A stretch of 64,000 nt of DNA from positions 32,981-96,980 of the forward strand of contig NZ_JAEULM010000017.1 in the NCBI RefSeq assembly GCF_016793825.1, written 5' to 3'. How positions within the stretch are numbered: the first letter of the stretch is position 1; each line of letters begins with the position of its first letter. The notes under the pieces are model-generated. The model was not told the origin of the DNA. It made no database searches and was given only the letters and a program-made list of their open reading frames with translations. This document shows, piece by piece, positions 23,973 to 61,052 of the stretch. A program made the translations under genes and the position numbers. The stretch is from Sphingopyxis sp. (lineage in GTDB: Bacteria > Pseudomonadota > Alphaproteobacteria > Sphingomonadales > Sphingomonadaceae).

Positions 23973-24536
23973 TTGGCGACGATGCTCCCGCACCTGCGCG
24001 CGTTCGGGCGCAGCCTTACGGGCAATGCCGATCTGGCCGACGATCTGGTCCAGGAAACGATGTTGAAGGCCTGGAAGGCGCGCGCGAGCTATATTCCCGG
24101 CCCGGCGAGCATGAAAAGCTGGGCGTTCGTTATCTTGCGCAACTGCTTCCTGTCGCAGATGCGGCGCAAGAAGTTTACCGCCGAATATGACGAACTCGCC
24201 GCCGAGCGGCTGCTCGTCGCGCCCGACGACCAGACCGACAGCCTGCACCTCGCCGATGTCCAGCGCGCGCTGCTGATGCTGCCCGTCGACCAGCGCGAGG
24301 CGTTGATCCTGATCGGCGCGGGGCAGCTTTCCTATGAAGAGGGCGCCGAGATTTGCGGCTGCGCCGTCGGCACGATGAAAAGCCGCGTGTCGCGTGCGCG
24401 GGCGGCGCTGCATGCGATCCTCGACGGCAGCGACATGCCGCTGCGGAGCACCGACCCGCTGGCGCCGAGCGATGCGTTCGCGTCGATCATGGGCAATGTC
24501 GATCGGCTGACCGGCGGCGGGCCTTCGCCCGACTGA
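23973..24536 (+). CDS. Second EcfG-like ECF sigma factor
   Basis: 187 residues from the TTG at 23973. Region 2 'PHLRAFGRSLTGNADLADDL' and region 4 'GTMKSRVSRARAALHAIL' are close to EcfG, whose gene lies 1 kb away. By alignment with EcfG, homology continues upstream ('PLDDASFKQELATM'), and the frame is open back to 23883, but it contains no ATG, GTG or TTG before 23973. The true start may be a rare codon (ATA 23916 or ATC 23922, with AAAGG just upstream), or the protein is slightly short. Multiple EcfG paralogs are known in Sphingomonadales and other alphaproteobacteria. Confidence 0.85.
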   Translation: MATMLPHLRAFGRSLTGNADLADDLVQETMLKAWKARASYIPGPASMKSWAFVILRNCFLSQMRRKKFTAEYDELAAERLLVAPDDQTDSLHLADVQRALLMLPVDQREALILIGAGQLSYEEGAEICGCAVGTMKSRVSRARAALHAILDGSDMPLRSTDPLAPSDAFASIMGNVDRLTGGGPSPD

Positions 24537-24552
24537 CGGAGTCCGGCCCCGT

Positions 24553-25344
24553 TCAGGCGGCCAGTTGCGGGGTGAACAACAGGCTCTGGCTGATCGCCGC
24601 GCGGACGGTATTTTCGCCGAAGGGCTTTGAGATCAGGAAAGTCGGTTCAACGCGATTGCCGGTGAGCAATCGTTCGGGAAACGCGGTGATGAAGATGACC
24701 GGCACCGGCGCGATCGCCAATATGTCCTGCACGGCGTCTATTCCCGATGACCCGTCGGCAAGCTGGATGTCGGCGAGGACAAGCCCGGCATCGGTGTCGC
24801 GGAACGCCGCCACGGCATCGTCGTGCGTCGTCGCGACGCCGGCGACCTCATGCCCGAGGCTGCGGACGATCTGTTCGAGATCTATCGCGATCAGCGGCTC
24901 GTCCTCGATGATCAACACCGACGTACGCGCTTCGCGATCCATCTCGCCGACGGCTTCGGCAAGCAATGTTTCGACCATGTCGCAGTGGGTACCGGTGATC
25001 GTTGCGGTTTCGGAAACCGAAAAGCCTTCGAGCGCGGTGAGCAGCAATATCTGGCGACCCAGCGGCGTGATGCGCGCGAGGCGGCGGTTGGCGGCGCGGA
25101 CGAGCGGGTCGCTCTCGTCGTCGCCCTCGCCGTCGGACAGGAAGGCGCTTTCCCAGATGCGGTGGAAATTGCGGTAAAGATCGATGCGCGTGTCGGGGCC
25201 GGTGCGGAATTCGTCGGGGGCGGCGACGATGACTTCCAGCGTCGTGTGAACGAAATTGTCGCCATGTTGCTGGCTGCCCGTCAAGGCGCGCGCATAGCGG
25301 CGCAGGAACGGCAAATGCCCGCGGATTTCTTCACCCAAGCTCAT
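24553..25344 (-). CDS. phyR: Response regulator PhyR (sigma-like domain plus receiver)
   Basis: 263 residues. The N-terminal sigma-factor-like domain (about 1-135; 'LPFLRRYARALTGSQQHGDN') mimics EcfG, and the C-terminal receiver (about 142-260) has the acidic pair E147/D148, phospho-accepting D192 ('LADIQLADGSSG'), T220 and K240. On phosphorylation PhyR sequesters NepR and frees EcfG. Divergent from an HWE kinase that may be its phosphodonor. An EcfG-type promoter with the same 16-base spacer as that of nepR lies upstream. Confidence 0.96.
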   Translation of the reverse strand: MSLGEEIRGHLPFLRRYARALTGSQQHGDNFVHTTLEVIVAAPDEFRTGPDTRIDLYRNFHRIWESAFLSDGEGDDESDPLVRAANRRLARITPLGRQILLLTALEGFSVSETATITGTHCDMVETLLAEAVGEMDREARTSVLIIEDEPLIAIDLEQIVRSLGHEVAGVATTHDDAVAAFRDTDAGLVLADIQLADGSSGIDAVQDILAIAPVPVIFITAFPERLLTGNRVEPTFLISKPFGENTVRAAISQSLLFTPQLAA

Positions 25345-25371
25345 GCGCGCTCTCCCTCTTTCAAGCTGTCA

Positions 25372-25396
25372 TACGCGGCGACGGGCGGTCGGTTCC
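25372..25396 (-). promoter_or_regulatory. EcfG-type promoter candidate of phyR
   Basis: GGAAC (25396-25392) is followed after 16 bases by CGTA (25375-25372), one mismatch from the CGTT consensus. A second overlapping GGAAC lies at 25402-25398. The implied transcript leader before the phyR ATG is about 20 bases. Confidence 0.55.
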
Positions 25397-25550
25397 GGTT
25401 CCGGTCCGAAAAAGCGGGGTTTCGGATTGCAACTGTTGTCGCCGCAGTGCGTAGAGTCAGCCGGGACGCGATCGGGCTTGCGCATAGGGGACGGATTTTA
25501 TCCATTTTCCTTCGCTGCCGGGCCACCACGCTTTTGTAGGGACCATTTTC

Positions 25551-27089
25551 ATGGCAGAGCGGCCCGCAATGAAGATCGATGCGTCGGCATCGGCAGGAGG
25601 CGAGGGGCGGATCTTGCAGGAAGGTGGCGAACGCGATCCGGTGCAGCGCGAACGCTGGCGACTGGATACGCTGCACGAATACCGGATCATGGATACGGAG
25701 CCCGAAGCAGGGTTCGACCGCGTGACCAAGCTGGTCGCCGACCTGTTCGACGTCCCCATCGCGCTTGTCTCGCTCATCGACGATTGCCGCCAGTGGTTCA
25801 AATCGGCGCACGGGCTGGATGTTCCCGAAACGACGCGCGATATCAGTTTCTGCCAGTTCGTCGTCACCGAGGAAAAGCCGATGGTGGTGGCCGACGTCCT
25901 GGGCGACGCGCGGTTCGCCGACAATCCGCTCGTCACCGGAGATCCCTTCATCCGCTTTTATGCCGGGGTTCCCCTGCGCGCCTATAATGGAGCGATCCTG
26001 GGCACGCTGTGCATCATCGACCGCAAGGAGCGCCAGTCGCCCGACGTCCGCGAGATGGAGCGGCTGGAAGACTTTGCCGCGATCATCATGGCCGAGGCGG
26101 AGCTGCGCCGGACGAGCGCCGAGCGCGATCATGCGCGCCGCGCGCTTGAACGCGCGCTGGATTTCGCGGGCATCGCCACGTGGCAATATGATCCGCGGAC
26201 CGATCGGCTGCGCACGCAGGGCGCCGGCGCCGAGCTGTGGGGGTCGGAGTTCGGGGCGACGCTTGCGACAGGCGACGGCTTTTTCGACCTGGTCCATCCC
26301 GACGACCGGGCGACGGTGCGCGCTGTCCTTCAGGAATCGGTCGCGAATGGCACGCCCTATATGGCGGAATATCGGGTTCTGAACCCCGAACGCGGCGTCC
26401 GCTGGAACGCGGTCCGCGGGGACTGGGACGTGCGGTCGAACGACGCCATGCTGACCGGCGTCAGTATCGACATCACCGAACAGAAAAGCCGGCAGGAAAA
26501 TGCCAATCTGTTGATGCGCGAGTTGCATCACCGGATGCGCAACCTTTTTGCGACGGTGAGTGCGATCATCTCGCTGACGCGCCATGCGGCGGTCGACGTC
26601 GACGATTATGTCGAGCGGATCGGCAGCCGCCTCGATGCGCTGAACCGCGCGCAGAATGTGCTGCTCAGCGCGAATTTCATGACGGGATCGATGCATGCGC
26701 TGATGCGCGAGGTCGAAGCGGCCTTTCCCCGTGTCCACTGGTCGGGTCCCGACCTTCTGCTGCCCGAGAATGCACTCGTCGCGATGGCGCTGTTTTTCAA
26801 CGAGCTCGCGACCAACGCGGCGAAACACGGGGCGCTGACCGGCGACAAGGGCCGTGTCGAGGTAAGCTGGACGCAAGAGACCGAAGGCGCGGACGATCGC
26901 ATGTTCCGTCTGACCTGGACCGAAAGCGGCGGCGACCGGACGGTGATCGCGCCCGAACGGACGAGCTTCGGCACCTTGCTGATGGAACGCAGCGTCCGCA
27001 ACAATCTGGGCGGCACGATCGAACGGCATTGGGAGCCGGCGGGATTGATCGTCGAGATTGCCCTTCCGGCGCGCTGGCGCGAGGCTTGA
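25551..27089 (+). CDS. Sensor histidine kinase, HWE family, GAF-PAS architecture
   Basis: 512 residues, no membrane segments, so a cytoplasmic sensor. A GAF domain occupies about 35-190 ('SLIDDCRQWFKSAHGLD', 'FYAGVPLRAYNGAILGTLCI'), a PAS/PAC domain about 200-312 ('VHPDDRATV', 'GVSIDITEQK'), then the kinase core: H-box 'ELHHRMRNLF' with His327 before the Arg, 'NELATNAAKHGAL' as the N-box, and 'WTESGGDRTV' giving the W-x-E of HWE kinases. HWE kinases commonly feed PhyR, and this gene is divergent from phyR, so it is the likely local input kinase. The signal is unknown; the GAF domain may bind a small ligand. Confidence 0.9.
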   Translation: MAERPAMKIDASASAGGEGRILQEGGERDPVQRERWRLDTLHEYRIMDTEPEAGFDRVTKLVADLFDVPIALVSLIDDCRQWFKSAHGLDVPETTRDISFCQFVVTEEKPMVVADVLGDARFADNPLVTGDPFIRFYAGVPLRAYNGAILGTLCIIDRKERQSPDVREMERLEDFAAIIMAEAELRRTSAERDHARRALERALDFAGIATWQYDPRTDRLRTQGAGAELWGSEFGATLATGDGFFDLVHPDDRATVRAVLQESVANGTPYMAEYRVLNPERGVRWNAVRGDWDVRSNDAMLTGVSIDITEQKSRQENANLLMRELHHRMRNLFATVSAIISLTRHAAVDVDDYVERIGSRLDALNRAQNVLLSANFMTGSMHALMREVEAAFPRVHWSGPDLLLPENALVAMALFFNELATNAAKHGALTGDKGRVEVSWTQETEGADDRMFRLTWTESGGDRTVIAPERTSFGTLLMERSVRNNLGGTIERHWEPAGLIVEIALPARWREA

Positions 27090-27106
27090 TCGCGACGGAA
27101 GTATTT

Positions 27107-27121
27107 GTTCTCTTTATGTTC
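27107..27121 (+). promoter_or_regulatory. LexA box (GTTC-N7-GTTC) before the repair operon
   Basis: GTTC TCTTTAT GTTC is an exact match to the direct-repeat SOS box used by alphaproteobacterial LexA. It ends 18 bases before the ATG of the radical SAM gene, the first gene of a four-gene DNA repair operon. The placement is what an SOS operator would need. Confidence 0.8.
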
Positions 27122-27139
27122 GCATGATAGGCAGCGGAC

Positions 27140-28390
27140 ATGGCAGCCAAACCGATTCTCGAAAAGCTGGCGGTGCTGGCCGACGCGGCCAAATATGATG
27201 CGTCATGTGCCTCGTCGGGCACCGTCAAACGCGATTCGGTCGCCAGCAAGGGGATCGGGTCGACCGAGGGAATGGGCATCTGCCACAGCTATGCGCCCGA
27301 TGGCCGGTGCATCTCGCTGCTCAAGATCCTGCTCACCAATTTCTGTATCTATGACTGCCGGTTCTGCATCAATCGCGCGTCGAGCAATGTGGAGCGGGCA
27401 CGGTTCAGCCCGCAGGAGGTCGTTCGGCTGACGCTCGATTTCTACAAGCGCAACTACATCGAAGGATTGTTCCTGTCGTCGGGCATCATCCGGTCCGAGG
27501 ATTATACGATGGAGCAGCTTGTCGAAGTCGCGCGCATCCTGCGCGAAGAGCATCGCTTTGGCGGCTATATTCATTTGAAGACGATTGCGGGCGCCGATCC
27601 GGAACTGATCGCGCTGGCGGGTCTGTATGCCGATCGCCTGTCGACCAATGTCGAACTGCCGACCGCAGCGGGATTGGAGAGCTTCGCGCCCGAGAAAAGG
27701 CCCGAGACGATCCGCAAGACGATGGCATCGGTGCGCGTCGGTACCGAGGATGCGATCGACGCGGCGAAGAGTCGGCTGATCGGCAAGGCGAAGCCGCCGC
27801 GTTTCGCGCCCGCCGGACAATCGACGCAGATGATCGTCGGCGCCGATGCGGCGCGCGACGACGACATTCTGGAATCCGCGACGAGCCTCTATTCGGGGTA
27901 CCGGCTTCGCCGCGTCTATTATTCGGCGTACAGTCCGATCCCCGACGCGAGCAGCGACCTGCCGCCTGTGCGGCCGCCCCTGATGCGCGAGCACAGATTG
28001 TATCAGGCCGACTGGTTGCTGCGCTTCTATGGGTTCGAACGCGCGGAGATCATGGAGGGCGCGCGTGGGGGAATGCTCGATCTTGCGATCGATCCGAAGC
28101 TCGCCTGGGCGCTCCAGCGGCGCGAGGTCTTTCCGGTCGATATCAATCGTGCGCCGCGCGAAATGCTGCTGCGCGTGCCGGGGCTCGGGACACGCGCGGT
28201 CGACCGTATCATCGCGGCGCGGCGTCTTGGCAGGCTGCGGCTCGGCGATCTGGCGAAGGTGACCGCAACGGTGAAGAAGCTGCTGCCCTTCATCGTCACC
28301 CCAGACTGGCGGCCGGGTAACCTGACCGACAGCGCCGGCCTTCGCGCGCGCTTCGCACCGCCGGCCGAACAACTGGCGCTCGCGCTGTGA
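27140..28390 (+). CDS. Putative DNA modification/repair radical SAM protein
   Basis: 416 residues. Radical SAM enzyme with the 4Fe-4S motif C69-x3-C73-x2-C76 in 'NFCIYDCRFC', a barrel-like core ('LFLSSGIIRSEDYTMEQLV', 'IHLKTIAGADPELI', 'STNVELPT'), and a C-terminal helix-hairpin-helix 'VPGLGTRAVDRIIAARR' (about 352-370) suited to DNA binding. It matches the family known as putative DNA modification/repair radical SAM proteins, which occur with DUF4130 proteins. The reaction is unknown. First gene of the repair operon, behind a LexA box; its stop overlaps the next start (GTGA). Confidence 0.92.
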   Translation: MAAKPILEKLAVLADAAKYDASCASSGTVKRDSVASKGIGSTEGMGICHSYAPDGRCISLLKILLTNFCIYDCRFCINRASSNVERARFSPQEVVRLTLDFYKRNYIEGLFLSSGIIRSEDYTMEQLVEVARILREEHRFGGYIHLKTIAGADPELIALAGLYADRLSTNVELPTAAGLESFAPEKRPETIRKTMASVRVGTEDAIDAAKSRLIGKAKPPRFAPAGQSTQMIVGADAARDDDILESATSLYSGYRLRRVYYSAYSPIPDASSDLPPVRPPLMREHRLYQADWLLRFYGFERAEIMEGARGGMLDLAIDPKLAWALQRREVFPVDINRAPREMLLRVPGLGTRAVDRIIAARRLGRLRLGDLAKVTATVKKLLPFIVTPDWRPGNLTDSAGLRARFAPPAEQLALAL

Positions 28391-29814
28391 GGGAGGTGAT
28401 CCTGAAGGCGCCCGGCGATTTTGCCGAATGGCGGTGCGCGGCGCGCGGGCTGCTCGCGAGCGGCGTGACGCCCGACGAGGTAAGCTGGCGTGGCGGCGTG
28501 GAGGGGGCTTCGCTGTTCGGCGATGTAGGGTCGGGAGCGCCCGCGGGGCCGCTCAGCCTGCCGCGCGAATTGGTCGAGATTGCCGAACGGGTGATTTGTC
28601 ATCGCGACCCCGAGGTGCCAGCGCGACTTTACCGGATCGTCTGGCGCGGGGCGCGCGACCGGCAACTTCTCGCGCGGACGACAGACCGCGAAGTCGCCTG
28701 GCTGCGCAGCGCCGACAAGGCGATCCGCCGCGACGTGCATAAGATGCATGCGTTCGTGCGTTTTCGGCGGCTGGGCGAGGAAGCGGGGCGCGAGAGTTTC
28801 GCGGCGTGGTTCGAGCCATCGCATCGCATCCTGCGGCTGACCGCGCCTTTCTTCCAGCGGCGCTTCTACGGCATGGACTGGGCGATCGTGACGCCGGATG
28901 CACGTGCGATCTGGCAGGACGAAACGCTCAGCTACGGCCCCGGCGGGTCGAAGGACGAGGTGCCCGAGAGCGATATCGTCGAGGACCAGTGGCGGACCTA
29001 TTACGGCGCGATTTTCAATCCCGCGCGGGTCAAGGTCGATGCGATGCGCGCCGAGATGCCGAAGAAATATTGGAAGAATCTGCCTGAGGCGCGGGATATC
29101 GCACCGTTGCTCGCGGGGGCGGAGGCGCGGGTGGAACGCATGCGCGAAGCGGCCGTTTCCATCGCGAACCCTCTGACCGACAAATGGCGGACGCGCGTGC
29201 CCGACGAACTGCTGCTCGACGATGATGTGAAGACGCTGGACGATCTCGCGCGCGCCGTCGATCGCTGCACGCGCTGTCCGCTGCACTGCCGTGCGACGCA
29301 AGGGGTGTCGGGTGAAGGGCCGGCGGATGCGCGCATCATGGTCGTCGGCGAGCAGCCGGGCGACCAGGAGGATTTGCAGGGGCGGCCCTTTGTCGGCCCC
29401 GCCGGGCAGGTGCTGGACGCGGCGCTGGAGGAAGCGGGGATCGACCGGAGCCGGCTGTTCCTGACGAACGCGGTCAAGCATTTCAAGTTCGAGCCGCGCG
29501 GCAAACGCCGTCTCCACCAGAACCCGACGACGGGCGAGATCGACGTCTGCCGCTGGTGGCTCGACAAGGAACGGGCGTTCGTCCGGCCCGCACTGATCGT
29601 CACGCTGGGCGTGAGCGCGCTGCGCGGGGTAACGGGCAAAAGTGCGCGCATCGCGTCGATGCGTGGCGCGGTGCATGGACTGGAGGGCGGAAGCAAGTTG
29701 GTCGCGACGATTCACCCGTCCTTCCTGCTTCGCCTGCCCGACCGCGAACGCGCGGCCGAAGAGCGTAAGGCCTTCGTTGCCGACCTGATCCGCGCACGGC
29801 GGCTCGCCGCCTGA
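28387..29814 (+). CDS. DUF4130 - UdgX fusion, uracil-DNA binding/cross-linking protein
   Basis: 475 residues from the GTG at 28387. Residues about 1-250 form a DUF4130 domain, found in probable DNA-metabolism proteins next to the radical SAM family above. Residues about 285-470 form a uracil-DNA glycosylase fold of the UdgX type: 'GEQPGDQED' (motif A), 'FLTNAVKHFKF', the R-loop 'RGKRRLHQNP' with His377, and 'TIHPSFLLR'. In mycobacterial UdgX the equivalent His forms a covalent bond with the abasic site after uracil removal. Cys294, Cys297 and Cys388 are likely Fe-S ligands. The 4-base overlap with the radical SAM gene indicates joint translation. Confidence 0.93.
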   Translation: MREVILKAPGDFAEWRCAARGLLASGVTPDEVSWRGGVEGASLFGDVGSGAPAGPLSLPRELVEIAERVICHRDPEVPARLYRIVWRGARDRQLLARTTDREVAWLRSADKAIRRDVHKMHAFVRFRRLGEEAGRESFAAWFEPSHRILRLTAPFFQRRFYGMDWAIVTPDARAIWQDETLSYGPGGSKDEVPESDIVEDQWRTYYGAIFNPARVKVDAMRAEMPKKYWKNLPEARDIAPLLAGAEARVERMREAAVSIANPLTDKWRTRVPDELLLDDDVKTLDDLARAVDRCTRCPLHCRATQGVSGEGPADARIMVVGEQPGDQEDLQGRPFVGPAGQVLDAALEEAGIDRSRLFLTNAVKHFKFEPRGKRRLHQNPTTGEIDVCRWWLDKERAFVRPALIVTLGVSALRGVTGKSARIASMRGAVHGLEGGSKLVATIHPSFLLRLPDRERAAEERKAFVADLIRARRLAA

Positions 29815-30827
29815 TGGCGCAGGCGAAAACCTGGATCGAGCCGCATTCGGGCGGCATTTACGTCAAGCCTGCCGACCTGTGGATCGACCCCTCGCGCCCG
29901 GTCGAACGCGCCGCGGTGACGCACGGCCATGCCGACCATGCGCGCAGCGGCCATGGCGCGGTGTTCGCGACCCCCGAAACGCTGGCGATCATGGCCCTGC
30001 GCTATGGCGTCGATACCGAGGCGAGTCACAATCAGGCCTTCGTCTATGGCGACGGCTTCGAGCGCGGCGGGGTGCGCTTTTCCTTCCACCCCGCCGGGCA
30101 TGTCCTCGGCAGCGCGCAGATTTTGATGGAATATGCGGGCGAGCGGATCGTCGTGACCGGCGATTACAAGCGGCGTCCCGACCCGACCTGCGCGCCGTTC
30201 GAGGTCGTGCCGTGCGACATCTTCGTCACCGAGGCGACCTTTGGCCTGCCGGTGTTCCGCCATCCGCCGACGTCGGGCGAGATCGCCAAGCTGATCGGCG
30301 CGGTGCGCGCCGAGCCGGACCGTTCGGTGCTTGTCGGCGCCTATGCGCTGGGCAAGGCGCAGCGGGTTATCGCCGAACTGCGCGGCGCGGGGTGGGACGC
30401 GCCGATCTTTATCCACGGCGCGCTTGATCGCATGTGCGCGCTCTATGCGATGCACGGCGTCGACCTTGGCGAGCTGCGGCTGGTGAGCGAGGCCGACAAG
30501 GGCGAGATGGCCGGGCAGATCGTGCTGGCGCCGCCCTCCGCGCTGAACGACCGCTGGTCGCGGCGGCTGCCCGATCCGGTCACCGCGATGGCGTCGGGGT
30601 GGATGCGCGTGCGCCAGCGCGCGCGGCAGCGGATGGTCGAACTGCCGCTGGTGATTTCCGACCATGCCGACTGGGACGAACTCACCACGACGATCGCCGA
30701 GGTGAACCCGGCGGAAAGCTGGATCACCCATGGCAGCGAGGACGGGCTGCTGCGCTGGTGCGAACTCACCCAGCGCAAGGCGCGCGCGCTGCACCTTGTC
30801 GGGCGCGATCTGGAGGAAGAGGCGTGA
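29814..30827 (+). CDS. Ligase-associated DNA exonuclease (metallo-beta-lactamase fold)
   Basis: 337 residues. Seen: 'VTHGHADHARSG', the H-x-H-x-D-H metal motif, 'FHPAGHVLGSAQIL', 'VVTGDYKRRPD', and 'VISDHADWDEL' with 'WITHGSEDGL' near the end, a beta-CASP-like arrangement. It belongs to the ligase-associated exonuclease group, distantly related to SNM1/Artemis nucleases, and is encoded next to the ATP-dependent ligase it is named for. ATG overlaps the UdgX stop by one base (TGATG), and its stop overlaps the ligase GTG (GTGA). Confidence 0.92.
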   Translation: MAQAKTWIEPHSGGIYVKPADLWIDPSRPVERAAVTHGHADHARSGHGAVFATPETLAIMALRYGVDTEASHNQAFVYGDGFERGGVRFSFHPAGHVLGSAQILMEYAGERIVVTGDYKRRPDPTCAPFEVVPCDIFVTEATFGLPVFRHPPTSGEIAKLIGAVRAEPDRSVLVGAYALGKAQRVIAELRGAGWDAPIFIHGALDRMCALYAMHGVDLGELRLVSEADKGEMAGQIVLAPPSALNDRWSRRLPDPVTAMASGWMRVRQRARQRMVELPLVISDHADWDELTTTIAEVNPAESWITHGSEDGLLRWCELTQRKARALHLVGRDLEEEA

Positions 30828-32392
30828 AGCGTTTCGCGGCGCTGATCGACCGGCTGGTCTATACGCGATCGCGCAACAGCAAGCTGGCGCTGATCGTCGA
30901 TTACCTGCGTCATACGCCCGATCCCGACCGCGGCTGGGCGATCGCCGCGCTGACCGAGAGCCTCGACTTTCCGGCGGTGAAGGCGGGCACGGTGCGGGCG
31001 CTGCTGGCGACGCGGATCGACGAACAGTTGTTTCGCCTGTCGCGGCACTTCGTCGGCGATACGGCGGAGACGGCGGCGCTGCTCTGGCCCGATGCGGCCG
31101 GGCCGAAAGCCGATCTTGGCGTCACCGAAGCCGTCGAAGCCCTTTCCGCCGCGACCCGCAGCGACGCCCCTGCGATCCTCGCCGCGCTGCTCGACCGGCT
31201 CGATGCCGACGGGCGCTATGCGCTGCTCAAACTGGCCCTCGGCGGAATGCGCGTCGGGGTGTCGGCGCGGCTGGCGAAGCAGGCATTCGCGCAGGCGTTC
31301 GCCGTGCCGGTCGACGATGTCGAGGAACTGTGGCACGCGATCCCGCCGCCCTATGCGCCGCTGTTCGCGTGGGGCGAGGGGCGGGCGCCGCGGCCCGATC
31401 TTGCCGACGTCGCCTTCTTTCGCCCTTTCATGCTCGCGCATCCGCTGGAAGAAGAGAGTATCGACCTCGCCGACTATGCCGCCGAATGGAAATGGGACGG
31501 CATCCGCGTGCAAATTGTCCGCGGGGGCAGCGAGACGCGCATCTACAGTCGCGGCGGCGAGGAGATCAGCGGGGCGTTTCCCGAGCTGGTCGCGGCGTTC
31601 GATCAGGACGCGGTGATCGACGGCGAACTGCTCGTGCGCGGCGATGTGCAGGGGGGTGAGGCGGCGAGTTTCAACGCGCTCCAGCAACGCCTTGGGCGCA
31701 AGACGGTGTCGAAGAAAATGCTCGCCGATTATCCGGCCTTCGTGCGCGTTTATGACCTGCTTGCGGTTGACGGAAACGACCTGCGCGCGCTGCCGTGGAC
31801 CGACCGGCGGCGGCAACTGGAAGCTTTCGTTCCGCGCCTCGCCGACAGTCATTTCGACCTGTCGCAGGTGATCGACGCGACCGACTTCGACGACCTCGCC
31901 GAACGCCGCGCCGGAGCGCGCGATGCCGCGATCGAGGGGGTGATGCTCAAGCGTCGCGACGCGCCCTATGTCGCGGGACGCCGCGCGGGGCTGTGGTACA
32001 AGTGGAAACGCGACCCGCTCGTCGCCGATTGCGTGATGATGTATGCCCAGCGCGGCAATGGGCGCCGCGCCAGCTTCTATTCGGATTATACATTTGGTTG
32101 CTGGTCGGATGCGGGCGAACTGCTGCCGGTCGGCAAAGCCTATTCGGGCTTCACCGACGAGGAACTGAAATGGCTCGACACATTCGTGCGCGACAACACG
32201 CTGAACCGCTTCGGCCCGGTTCGCGAGGTCGAAAAGACGCTCGTGCTCGAAGTCGCGTTCGATTCGATCCATGCGTCGAAGCGCCACAAGTCGGGGCTGG
32301 CAATGCGCTTTCCGCGCATATCGCGCATCCGCCGCGACAAGCCCGCCGAAGAGGCCGACCGGATTGCGACGCTGCGCGCGATGGTGACGTGA
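30824..32392 (+). CDS. ATP-dependent DNA ligase (LigB/LigC-type)
   Basis: 522 residues from the GTG at 30824. An N-terminal helical DNA-binding domain (about 1-205) precedes the nucleotidyltransferase domain with the AMP-accepting Lys223 in 'EWKWDGIRVQ', 'RIYSRGGEEI', 'DGELLVR', 'EGVMLKRRDAPY' and 'WYKWKRDP', then an OB domain ending 'RFPRISRIRRDK', motif VI. It seals nicks using ATP, separate from the NAD-dependent replicative ligase. It commonly occurs with a large helicase and a phosphoesterase, neither of which is present here. Last gene of the LexA-box operon. Confidence 0.94.
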   Translation: MKRFAALIDRLVYTRSRNSKLALIVDYLRHTPDPDRGWAIAALTESLDFPAVKAGTVRALLATRIDEQLFRLSRHFVGDTAETAALLWPDAAGPKADLGVTEAVEALSAATRSDAPAILAALLDRLDADGRYALLKLALGGMRVGVSARLAKQAFAQAFAVPVDDVEELWHAIPPPYAPLFAWGEGRAPRPDLADVAFFRPFMLAHPLEEESIDLADYAAEWKWDGIRVQIVRGGSETRIYSRGGEEISGAFPELVAAFDQDAVIDGELLVRGDVQGGEAASFNALQQRLGRKTVSKKMLADYPAFVRVYDLLAVDGNDLRALPWTDRRRQLEAFVPRLADSHFDLSQVIDATDFDDLAERRAGARDAAIEGVMLKRRDAPYVAGRRAGLWYKWKRDPLVADCVMMYAQRGNGRRASFYSDYTFGCWSDAGELLPVGKAYSGFTDEELKWLDTFVRDNTLNRFGPVREVEKTLVLEVAFDSIHASKRHKSGLAMRFPRISRIRRDKPAEEADRIATLRAMVT

Positions 32393-32491
32393 GTTGAGGG
32401 CGAGGAAGGAAAAATTGCCGGCGTGGGGCTTGCAACCATCCGGTAGAGGGCCGAATTAAGGGGCCATCCAAACAGAATAATGGAGACTGCC

Positions 32492-33106
32492 ATGACGATC
32501 GCTTTCCCGCCGCTGCCCTACGCCCAGGATGCGCTGGCGCCGCATATTTCGGCCGACACGCTCGCGACTCATCATGGCAAGCATCACAAGGCCTATATCG
32601 ACAAGACCAATGCCGCGATCGAAGGCACCGAACTTGCCGACAAGAGCCTCGAGGAAATCATCCATCACGCCGAAGGCGCGGGCAACAAGGGGCTGTTCAA
32701 TAACAGCGCCCAGTCGTGGAACCACGCCTTTTACTGGCACAGCCTGTCGCCAACCAAAACCGCTCCGTCGGGCGACCTGGCCGCCGCGATCGATCGCGAT
32801 TTCGGCTCGCTCGACGACCTCAAGAAGAAGCTGAAGGAAACCGCGGTCAACCACTTCGCCTCGGGCTGGGCGTGGCTGGTTGCCAAGGACGGCAAGCTGT
32901 CGGTCACCGACACGCATGACGCCGGCACCGAAGTGACCGCCGGGATCAAGCCGCTCGTCGTGATCGACGTGTGGGAACATGCCTATTACATCGACCGCAA
33001 GAACCTGCGTCCGGCCTATGTCGATGCGGTGGTCGACGAACTGCTCAACTGGGATTTCGCCGCCGAGAATCTCGCGCGCGATGGCGCCTGGACCTATCCT
33101 GCGTAA
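32492..33106 (+). CDS. sodB: Superoxide dismutase, Fe-type
   Basis: 204 residues from the ATG at 32492 (GGAGA five bases upstream; an earlier in-frame ATG at 32480 lacks one). Cytoplasmic enzyme converting superoxide to peroxide and oxygen. Metal ligands seen: His27 ('THHGKHHKAYI'), His78 ('SWNHAFYW'), and the Asp/His pair in 'DVWEHAYYID'. Gln74 in 'NNSAQSWNH' at the position that in FeSOD carries the hydrogen-bonding glutamine supports Fe rather than Mn. Stand-alone gene followed by a 128-bp dispersed repeat. Confidence 0.95.
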   Translation: MTIAFPPLPYAQDALAPHISADTLATHHGKHHKAYIDKTNAAIEGTELADKSLEEIIHHAEGAGNKGLFNNSAQSWNHAFYWHSLSPTKTAPSGDLAAAIDRDFGSLDDLKKKLKETAVNHFASGWAWLVAKDGKLSVTDTHDAGTEVTAGIKPLVVIDVWEHAYYIDRKNLRPAYVDAVVDELLNWDFAAENLARDGAWTYPA

Positions 33107-59549: not shown

Positions 59550-61052
59550 ATGATTGAACTGGGCCAAGAGACAGGCCGGATCCTCGATGAGCTGGGCGTC
59601 GACCGCGCGGCGTGGACTGGCGGGTCGATGCCATCGCGCTCGCCATTGACCGGCGAACAGATCGCGGCGGTCCGCACCGTCGATACCGCCGATATCGATG
59701 CCGCGCTTGGGCAGGCCACCGCCGCCTTTCGCGCCTGGCGCACCGTGCCAGCTCCGCGCCGCGGCGAACTGATCCGGCTGCTTGGCGAGGAACTGCGTGT
59801 GGCAAAGGACGATCTGGCGAAGCTGGTCACGATCGAGGCCGGGAAGATCCCGTCCGAAGGCGCGGGCGAAGTGCAGGAAATGATCGATATCTGCGATTTC
59901 GCGGTCGGGCTGTCGCGTCAGCTTTATGGCCTGACCATCGCGACCGAGCGGCCGGGGCACCGGATGATGGAGGTCTGGCATCCGCTGGGCGTCGTCGGGG
60001 TGATTTCGGCGTTCAATTTTCCGGTCGCGGTGTGGGCGTGGAACGCCGCTCTTGCGATCGTCTGCGGCAACAGCGTCGTCTGGAAGCCGTCGGAGAAGAC
60101 GCCGCTCACCGCTCTTGCGACGCAGGCGATCTTCGAGCGCGCGGCGGCGCGGTTCGGCGACGCGCCGGCGGGGCTGTCGCACGTGCTGATCGGCGGGCGC
60201 GAAGCGGGTGAGGCGCTGGTCGACGACGCGCGCGTCGCGCTTGTTTCGGCGACCGGTTCGACGCGGATGGGCCGATCGGTCGCGCCGCGGCTTGCGCAGC
60301 GTTTTGCGCGCGCGATCCTTGAACTCGGCGGGAACAACGGCGTGATCGTCGCGCCCTCGGCCGACCTCGACCTTGCGCTGCGCGGCGTGGCGTTCGGGGC
60401 GATGGGGACCGCGGGACAGCGTTGCACGACGACGCGGCGATTGTTCCTGCACGACAGCATTCATGACGGCTTCGTCGCGAAGTTGAAGGCGGCCTATGCG
60501 AGCGTGGGTGTCGGAAACCCGCTCGACGGCGATGTGCTTGTCGGACCGCTGATCGACCGTGCGGCGTTCGAGATGATGCAGGAGGCGCTGACGGCGGCGC
60601 GGGCGGCCGGTGGTGTGGTGCATGGCGGCGAGCGCGTCGGCGACGGCGCGAGTTTTTACGTGAGACCCGCGCTCGTCGAGATGCCGGGGCAGGTCGGACC
60701 CGTGCTTGAGGAGACCTTTGCGCCGATCCTGTATGTGATGCGCTATTATGACCTCGACGCCGTGATCGAATTGCACAACGACGTCGCGGCCGGCCTGTCG
60801 TCGGCGATCTTCACCACCGACATGCGCGAGGCCGAGCGTTTCCTGATCGCGAGCGATTGCGGTATCGCCAACGTCAATCTGGGCACGAGCGGCGCGGAAA
60901 TCGGCGGAGCGTTCGGCGGCGAGAAGGAAACCGGCGGCGGACGTGAAAGTGGCTCGGATGCGTGGCGGCAGTATATGCGGCGCGCGACCAATACGGTGAA
61001 TTATTCGGATGCGCTGCCGCTCGCGCAGGGGGTGAGTTTCGATCTTAGCTGA
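59550..61052 (+). CDS. ALDH7-like aldehyde dehydrogenase (aminoadipate semialdehyde type)
   Basis: 500 residues from the ATG at 59550 (GAAGGGA upstream). Full aldehyde dehydrogenase: '[20 protein letters not shown]', '[11 protein letters not shown]', catalytic Glu in '[12 protein letters not shown]', catalytic Cys in '[16 protein letters not shown]', '[11 protein letters not shown]'. The end '[20 protein letters not shown]' and '(R)[19 protein letters not shown]' is characteristic of ALDH7/L-2-aminoadipate-6-semialdehyde dehydrogenases in lysine catabolism. The neighbouring lysine genes are absent, so the physiological aldehyde is not certain. Divergent from acs. Confidence 0.92.

Follow-up and report, generated by a model that had tools for sequence, protein, structure and literature searches.

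A conserved LexA-type box before the radical SAM–UdgX–exonuclease–ligase operon of Sphingopyxis suggests its SOS control

Organization of the operon and its surroundings

The window, i.e., the whole 64 kb stretch of DNA analysed, carries four genes arranged in one operon and encoding a radical SAM protein, a DUF4130–UdgX fusion, a ligase-associated exonuclease and an ATP-dependent DNA ligase (Table 1). All three junctions overlap: the radical SAM stop codon (28388–28390) overlaps the UdgX gene, starting with GTG at 28387, by 4 nt, the UdgX stop codon (29812–29814) overlaps the exonuclease gene, starting with ATG at 29814, by 1 nt and the exonuclease stop codon (30825–30827) overlaps the ligase gene, starting with GTG at 30824, by 4 nt. 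Within the 50-base gap between the end of the preceding HWE kinase ORF (27089) and the radical SAM ATG (27140), two GTTC half-sites (27107–27110 and 27118–27121) flank the spacer TCTTTAT, with 18 bases between the end of this box and the ATG. The first-pass annotation had described GTTC-TCTTTAT-GTTC at this distance as a perfect match to the alphaproteobacterial GTTC-N7-GTTC operator, followed by translationally coupled genes of the DNA-repair type. The direct reading bore out the box, its distance and its exact match, the overlapping codons agreed with the coupling, and the products scored above the curated cut-offs of their families.

Table 1. Features of the operon locus in the window.
Feature	Position	Strand	Basis
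GAF/PAS HWE histidine kinase, outside the operon, syntenic left border	25551..27089	+	ORF and domain matches, synteny
Predicted core promoter overlapped by the box	27104..27133	+	Consensus of 49 Sphingopyxis loci
Putative LexA operator GTTC-TCTTTAT-GTTC	27107..27121	+	Exact GTTC-N7-GTTC, counts in the genome and in relatives
Radical SAM protein (TIGR03916)	27140..28390	+	555 bits vs cut-off 343.5
DUF4130–UdgX fusion (TIGR03915 + TIGR03914)	28387..29814	+	Above curated cut-offs
Metallo-beta-lactamase/beta-CASP-type ligase-associated exonuclease (TIGR04122)	29814..30827	+	456 bits vs cut-off 325
ATP-dependent DNA ligase (TIGR04120)	30824..32392	+	778.7 bits vs cut-off 400
Superoxide dismutase, syntenic right border	32480..33106	+	Best match iron type, below its cut-off

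The radical SAM protein belongs to a family which we take to be the same as COG4277. It contains the CX3CX2C cluster motif, with C69, C73 and C76 invariant in all 47 aligned proteins, and a helix-hairpin-helix match too weak to reach the Pfam cut-off; no solved structure related by sequence was found at E 0.01. Among the best 80 of 592 matches, it was 89–94% identical to the proteins of five named Sphingopyxis loci, with the next named loci at 73% identity or less, which places the window in a Sphingopyxis genome. In the UdgX part, residues E322, Q323, R375 and H377 were invariant in 54 of 54 aligned proteins, and motif A (GEQPG), the R-loop (KRRLH, of the KRRxH type with the crosslinking His) and motif B (HPS) were all present. 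In a wider set of 144 proteins, from which 11 further rows with an uncovered C-terminus were dropped, GEQPG was found in 139, KRR[ILMV]H in 133 and HPS-x-[LV][LV]R in 124. With these residues present, the protein is predicted to capture abasic DNA covalently after uracil removal. By sequence, the exonuclease is related to CPSF73-type nucleases and the ligase to ATP-dependent DNA ligases. A gene for the partner DEXH helicase (TIGR04121) is not adjacent to the operon; it was found on another contig (G000:C33:24907-27252).

In Sphingopyxis, the operon locus was flanked by the kinase and superoxide dismutase genes wherever the flanks could be read. The region 23973–27089 of the window encodes an ECF sigma factor, a PhyR-family anti-anti-sigma response regulator (scoring above its cut-off) and the HWE kinase directly before the operon, so that a putative general-stress locus adjoins the predicted SOS operon.

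The box, the predicted promoter and similar sites in the genome

The consensus of 49 Sphingopyxis loci revealed a -35-like TTTGTTC and a conserved -10-like TGCTA, with which TGATA (27125–27129) of the window aligns. The conservation of both elements suggests that the box overlaps the operon promoter, and a short leader is expected for the transcript. A sigma-70 consensus scan returned no site.

The bare GTTC-N7-GTTC core occurred twice in the window, with 1.74 copies expected from shuffles, and a core found at the chance rate proves nothing by itself. The second copy (60321–60335, minus strand) has a GC-rich spacer and is probably a chance match. The sequence GTTCNNNNWWTGTTC was found once versus 0.08 expected, at least one copy being present in 8 of 100 shuffles, and at the genome-wide core density about 0.001 core matches are expected, by arithmetic, in the 50-base gap before the operon. 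In the whole genome, 112 bare cores were detected versus 57 for the reversed control, and the AT-rich form GTTCNNNWWWTGTTC had 13 sites versus 0.

The genome encodes LexA and RecA, and both genes have their own exact box, 48 nt upstream of lexA and 77 nt upstream of recA. Of the 13 AT-rich sites, one is the operon box and another five could be assigned to a probable repair or SOS gene. These five stand before two ImuA-like genes (L005 and L008, both scoring under the family cut-off), before uvrA (L013, where the locus end truncates the gene), before a PA0069-type radical SAM gene (L012) and before a SRAP gene (L009). A further one (L003) lies about 300 nt before rpsB, and another (L002) about 290 nt upstream of a gene with a Peptidase S24-like domain. 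For sites L001, L004, L006, L007 and L010, no likely target gene was found. The boxed set (lexA, recA, ImuA-like and SRAP genes) overlaps with the genes reported as induced by anoxia in an RNA-seq study of Sphingopyxis granuli TFA, which include lexA, recA, two imuAB-dnaE2 operons and SRAP genes (PMC6472365). In the part of that article consulted, the operon is not named and no glycosylase, ligase, radical SAM protein or exonuclease was found; TFA may or may not carry the operon.

Conservation of the box before the radical SAM gene

The radical SAM gene scored above the cut-off in 53 of 80 Sphingopyxis genomes. The exact box was present in all 52 readable loci, the window included, in the plus orientation and 17–21 nt upstream of the gene; this count combines 51 loci with that of G119, the locus of G208 being cut by a contig edge. 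In the order-wide sample, the family was above the cut-off in 43 of 147 genomes, and 41 of 42 loci, read from -300 to +21 of the estimated start, had the exact box; these omit the window and include three Sphingopyxis loci. The reversed core was detected in 1/42, and cores with N6 and N8 spacing once each. The sole locus of this sample without the exact box (L014) has the N6 spacing instead. The exact box was also present in 72 of the 74 named alphaproteobacterial loci, five of them from Sphingopyxis, that figured among the best 80 of 592 matches; the reversed core was seen in two of the 74, and N6 or N8 spacing in at most one. Three of four further control cores were found in 0–2 of these 74 loci; the fourth, CGTT-N7-CGTT, occurred in 7/74, more often than the reversed core. 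In L105 and L162, a box departing from the exact one by a single mismatch is located at the customary position. The six xanthomonad loci among the same 80 matches, counted apart from the 74, had no box (0/6). As Sphingopyxis loci are common to several sets, the genus, order and named sets overlap and are not independent.

The first-pass annotation had predicted LexA control of the whole operon and had proposed a search for the box before the same operon in relatives; the search found it in each of the three sets, and this conservation, together with the boxed lexA and recA genes, supports the predicted control. The box could still be taken for a chance match or for the site of another regulator, given that the bare core is at the chance rate in the window and that its second copy there has a GC-rich spacer. 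Such a reading is opposed by the occurrence of the box in nearly all loci versus the rare reversed and altered-spacing controls, as well as by the same motif before lexA, recA, the ImuA-like genes and uvrA; we regard it as highly improbable. Chance in particular was rejected on the AT-rich sites (13 versus 0), the 0.08 copies expected in the window and the conservation counts relative to their controls.

In three xanthomonad genomes (L299, L300 and L304, positions 1501–1517), the radical SAM start is preceded, at a distance of 22 nt, by the palindrome GTCTCA-N5-TGAGAC. Only two to three copies of it were found per genome, and none of the reversed control. In L301 and L303, it precedes a gene for a TIGR03817-like DEAH helicase (partial in the locus), and the copies in L302 and L298 were tied to no gene. 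The palindrome possibly marks a small damage regulon under another regulator.

Box orientation and origin of the radical SAM–UdgX pair

In most relatives outside Sphingopyxis, the box is inverted (GAAC-N7-GAAC) and its commonest end point lies 2 nt before the start codon (70 boxes ending there in 116 loci). The idea that the box is conserved in one orientation or in close kin only was rejected on this reading of both strands. Sphingopyxis loci and those of a group presumed to be Hyphomonadaceae, one row of which (Pontivivens) is outside that family, have the box in the plus orientation, mostly 5–21 nt upstream.

In a phylogeny of 97 radical SAM proteins, of which 69 had an inverted box, 18 a plus box, one both and nine none within 60 nt, the plus orientation was a single change, which suggests that operator and gene have moved together. 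Sphingopyxis, the genome G065 and the Hyphomonadaceae-type rows were placed on one side of a branch with SH-aLRT 88, which was not starred. Forcing Sphingopyxis to group with the other sphingomonads made the tree 21.7 log units worse, and this arrangement was not rejected (AU p 0.166). A lateral origin of the Sphingopyxis pair is thus favoured over the vertical one, though not demonstrated at this AU p value, and the boxed pair is perhaps of Hyphomonadaceae-like origin.

Exonuclease–ligase genes behind the boxed unit in Sphingopyxis

Outside Sphingopyxis, the order-wide sample contained the radical SAM gene above the cut-off in 39 genomes, the exonuclease gene in 50 and both in 37. In none of these 37 were the two units fused, and in two they were located within 10 kb of each other. 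No box was detected within 300 bases upstream of the exonuclease gene in 49 of the 50 genomes. The sole exception was G131 (L027, L085), in which the box is shared with the divergent radical SAM gene. In this genome, one box between the divergent radical SAM–UdgX and exonuclease–ligase units could serve both, an arrangement that could represent a second route to joint control.

In Sphingopyxis, the exonuclease gene was located 1478–1534 bases behind the radical SAM match in 49 of 53 genomes. The remaining four are G205 and G219, where the two genes lie apart, G194, whose genes fall on separate contigs, and G192, which lacks an exonuclease above the cut-off. The locus of G219 (L271) reads kinase, box, radical SAM, UdgX and superoxide dismutase, with the exonuclease–ligase genes on another contig. 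In Sphingopyxis sp. PET50 (L088:7248-8671), the UdgX match is interrupted, with its two parts in different frames, which may mean that the gene is broken. The comparison of the genus with its order suggests that an enzyme pair usually outside the SOS alarm, the exonuclease and the ligase, has been brought under a LexA box in Sphingopyxis. Its joining to an SOS-type UDG unit looks new, and no earlier report of it, or of the series of loci with a LexA-type promoter retained before the two genes, was found in the searched open-access literature.

Natural variants of the locus

Twenty Sphingopyxis genomes had the exonuclease gene and no radical SAM gene above the cut-off. In eight of them (G156, G159, G166, G186, G204, G206, G212 and G215), the box was found directly before the exonuclease gene; in G215, this unit stands behind a Crp-like gene. 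A ninth case of box and exonuclease, also behind a Crp-like gene, is G205, with the boxed radical SAM–UdgX pair elsewhere in the genome. In G197 and G213 (2/20), the box is followed by a short UdgX gene, the exonuclease and the ligase, the UdgX lacking DUF4130 and keeping the UDG domain. These short free-standing proteins (L266:1216-1956 and L267:3330-4073) keep the KRRLH loop, behind the box and with no DUF4130 or radical SAM partner. Three genomes (G153, G163 and G181) also had a short UdgX gene, with no exact box upstream in the stretch read; in L259, one core match lies inside the UdgX reading frame. In five (G080, G147, G182, G190 and G209), a syntenic kinase–exonuclease–ligase arrangement without a box was observed, with the exonuclease 12–49 nt behind the kinase match. 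The last two, G088 and G158, had no syntenic neighbours and no box in the stretches read. The five loci without a box and the three with a short UdgX and no box indicate that SOS control is not universal in Sphingopyxis.

The boxed loci without the pair keep aTTTGTTC-N7-GTTC followed by TGCTA, with single departures. On an exonuclease–ligase tree of 48 rows, including 24 of the 49 fused loci and among them the window, four changes of the box–exonuclease state were forced by starred branches among the fused rows. The state is therefore not a single event, and the count cannot tell gain from loss. A Crp/FNR-type gene was noticed between the kinase and the exonuclease or short UdgX gene in L262, L268, L270 and L274, the label relying on a test for L270 and on likeness for the other three. 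This insertion possibly reflects a change of regulator.

The variants bear on the question of whether the exonuclease and ligase genes are passengers, so that only radical SAM–UdgX would be meaningfully SOS-controlled and the other two would have their main promoter elsewhere, inside UdgX or through read-through from the kinase of the general-stress locus, in which case the box would be uninformative about the ligase. The pair alone is boxed across the class and the exonuclease is nearly always box-less outside Sphingopyxis, as it is in the five kinase–exonuclease–ligase genomes, where it closely follows the kinase. A passenger status fits poorly with the overlap at every operon junction and with a box promoter standing directly before the exonuclease in nine genomes whose locus lacks the pair, as well as directly before the short UdgX–exonuclease–ligase unit in two others. 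Since the boxed loci without the pair are at scattered places in the tree, retention of the promoter would be unexpected for passengers, and we consider their being so quite unlikely.

The order of arrival at the locus could also have been different, with radical SAM–UdgX there first and exonuclease–ligase placed later behind UdgX. This would agree with G219, which has the pair without the exonuclease–ligase genes at the locus and whose radical SAM protein branches outside the rest of the genus plus G065. The fit is reduced by L258, with neither box nor pair, which leaves an unresolved fork at the genus base and suits a late entry of the pair as well; the exonuclease–ligase tree has long outgroup branches and several weak forks. 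An early pair is a real possibility, somewhat short of an even chance, and it is compatible with the preferred explanation, because either order leads to the same regulatory outcome.

Proposed regulation and function

We consider it most probable (about 0.88) that the box is a LexA operator over the operon promoter and that a pair with an older box was joined to the exonuclease–ligase genes, making them SOS genes. In the undamaged cell, LexA on the operator would block transcription of the operon. A RecA filament on single-stranded DNA would lead to self-cleavage of LexA, and the four overlapping genes would then be made together. The older SOS unit would be the radical SAM and DUF4130–UdgX genes with their own box, present across Alphaproteobacteria. 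In Sphingopyxis, the boxed pair would have been placed beside the general-stress (PhyR) genes and before exonuclease–ligase genes of which the exonuclease is nearly always box-less outside the genus, and the exonuclease and ligase would thereby have become SOS genes. LexA binding, induction by damage, lateral origin and the order of events are what we infer from the sequences compared.

The four enzymes may form one damage-response pathway. The radical SAM protein would act on a damaged base, UdgX would remove uracil and cap the abasic site covalently, the exonuclease would clear the strand and the ligase would then seal it. A more specific proposal is that Sphingopyxis has one SOS-induced pathway for a lesion ending as a protein-capped abasic site. 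The damaged base would be converted by the radical SAM protein and then excised and covalently capped by UdgX; the beta-CASP exonuclease would take away the strand bearing the cap, and the ligase would close the repaired gap. The proposal further holds that the promoter of the exonuclease–ligase module was swapped in evolution among three settings, namely the SOS system with its LexA box, the general-stress locus, where the module directly follows the HWE kinase gene, and loci in which a Crp/FNR-type gene has come to lie upstream. Taken as a whole, this proposal is tentative and rather unlikely.

To our knowledge, it is unclear what physiological role is served by UdgX, a protein that attaches itself to DNA. 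Almost every alphaproteobacterial locus examined has a LexA box before the gene of the radical SAM partner, and this points to a need for the pair after DNA damage. The series of Sphingopyxis loci, in which the genes vary while a LexA promoter often stays before exonuclease–ligase, constitutes a set of natural variants and gives a handle on which of the enzymes are required jointly and for what reason a ligase would be SOS-controlled.

Comparison with known systems

A UDG operon of a comparable kind has been placed under SOS control before: the COG1573–COG4277 operon was described as SOS-regulated in Bacteroidetes, with Verrucomicrobia and Alphaproteobacteria cited (PMC8565304). The likeness consists in a UDG-family gene and a second gene under LexA; the consulted portion of that article mentions no exonuclease or ligase, whereas the present operon has both. 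Likewise, an SOS context has been described in which DUF4130 is associated with SplB-like radical SAM proteins of the photolyase-like type and with uracil-DNA glycosylases (PMC3765255). According to the passages available, that link is by gene neighbourhood, with no tie to the exonuclease–ligase pair, and the ATP-dependent ligases there occur with Ku.

The Caulobacter LexA regulon, as far as its description was accessible, uses the same GTTC-N7-GTTC operator as the Sphingopyxis operon, mostly with one box per promoter, e.g., GTTCttgttatGTTC (PMC12700426). No glycosylase, ligase or exonuclease was found in the excerpt of that paper, and no uracil, glycosylase, ligase or radical SAM in the excerpts of two other articles on the Caulobacter SOS response (PMC13384398 and PMC12907096).

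For Mycobacterium smegmatis UdgX, residues of motif A and the R-loop were tied to the covalent capture of abasic DNA (PMC10359453); the extract consulted contains no mention of SOS or an operon. GEQPG, KRRxH and HPS are shared between this protein (PDB 6ail and kin) and that of the window, which, unlike M. smegmatis UdgX, is fused to DUF4130 and encoded in the putative LexA operon.

The last two genes of the operon resemble the ligase-associated DNA damage genes (TIGR04120, TIGR04122 and TIGR04121), of which the exonuclease and ligase families are represented here above their curated cut-offs. Unlike in that set, the helicase gene is located on another contig and the exonuclease–ligase genes stand behind UdgX under a LexA-type box.
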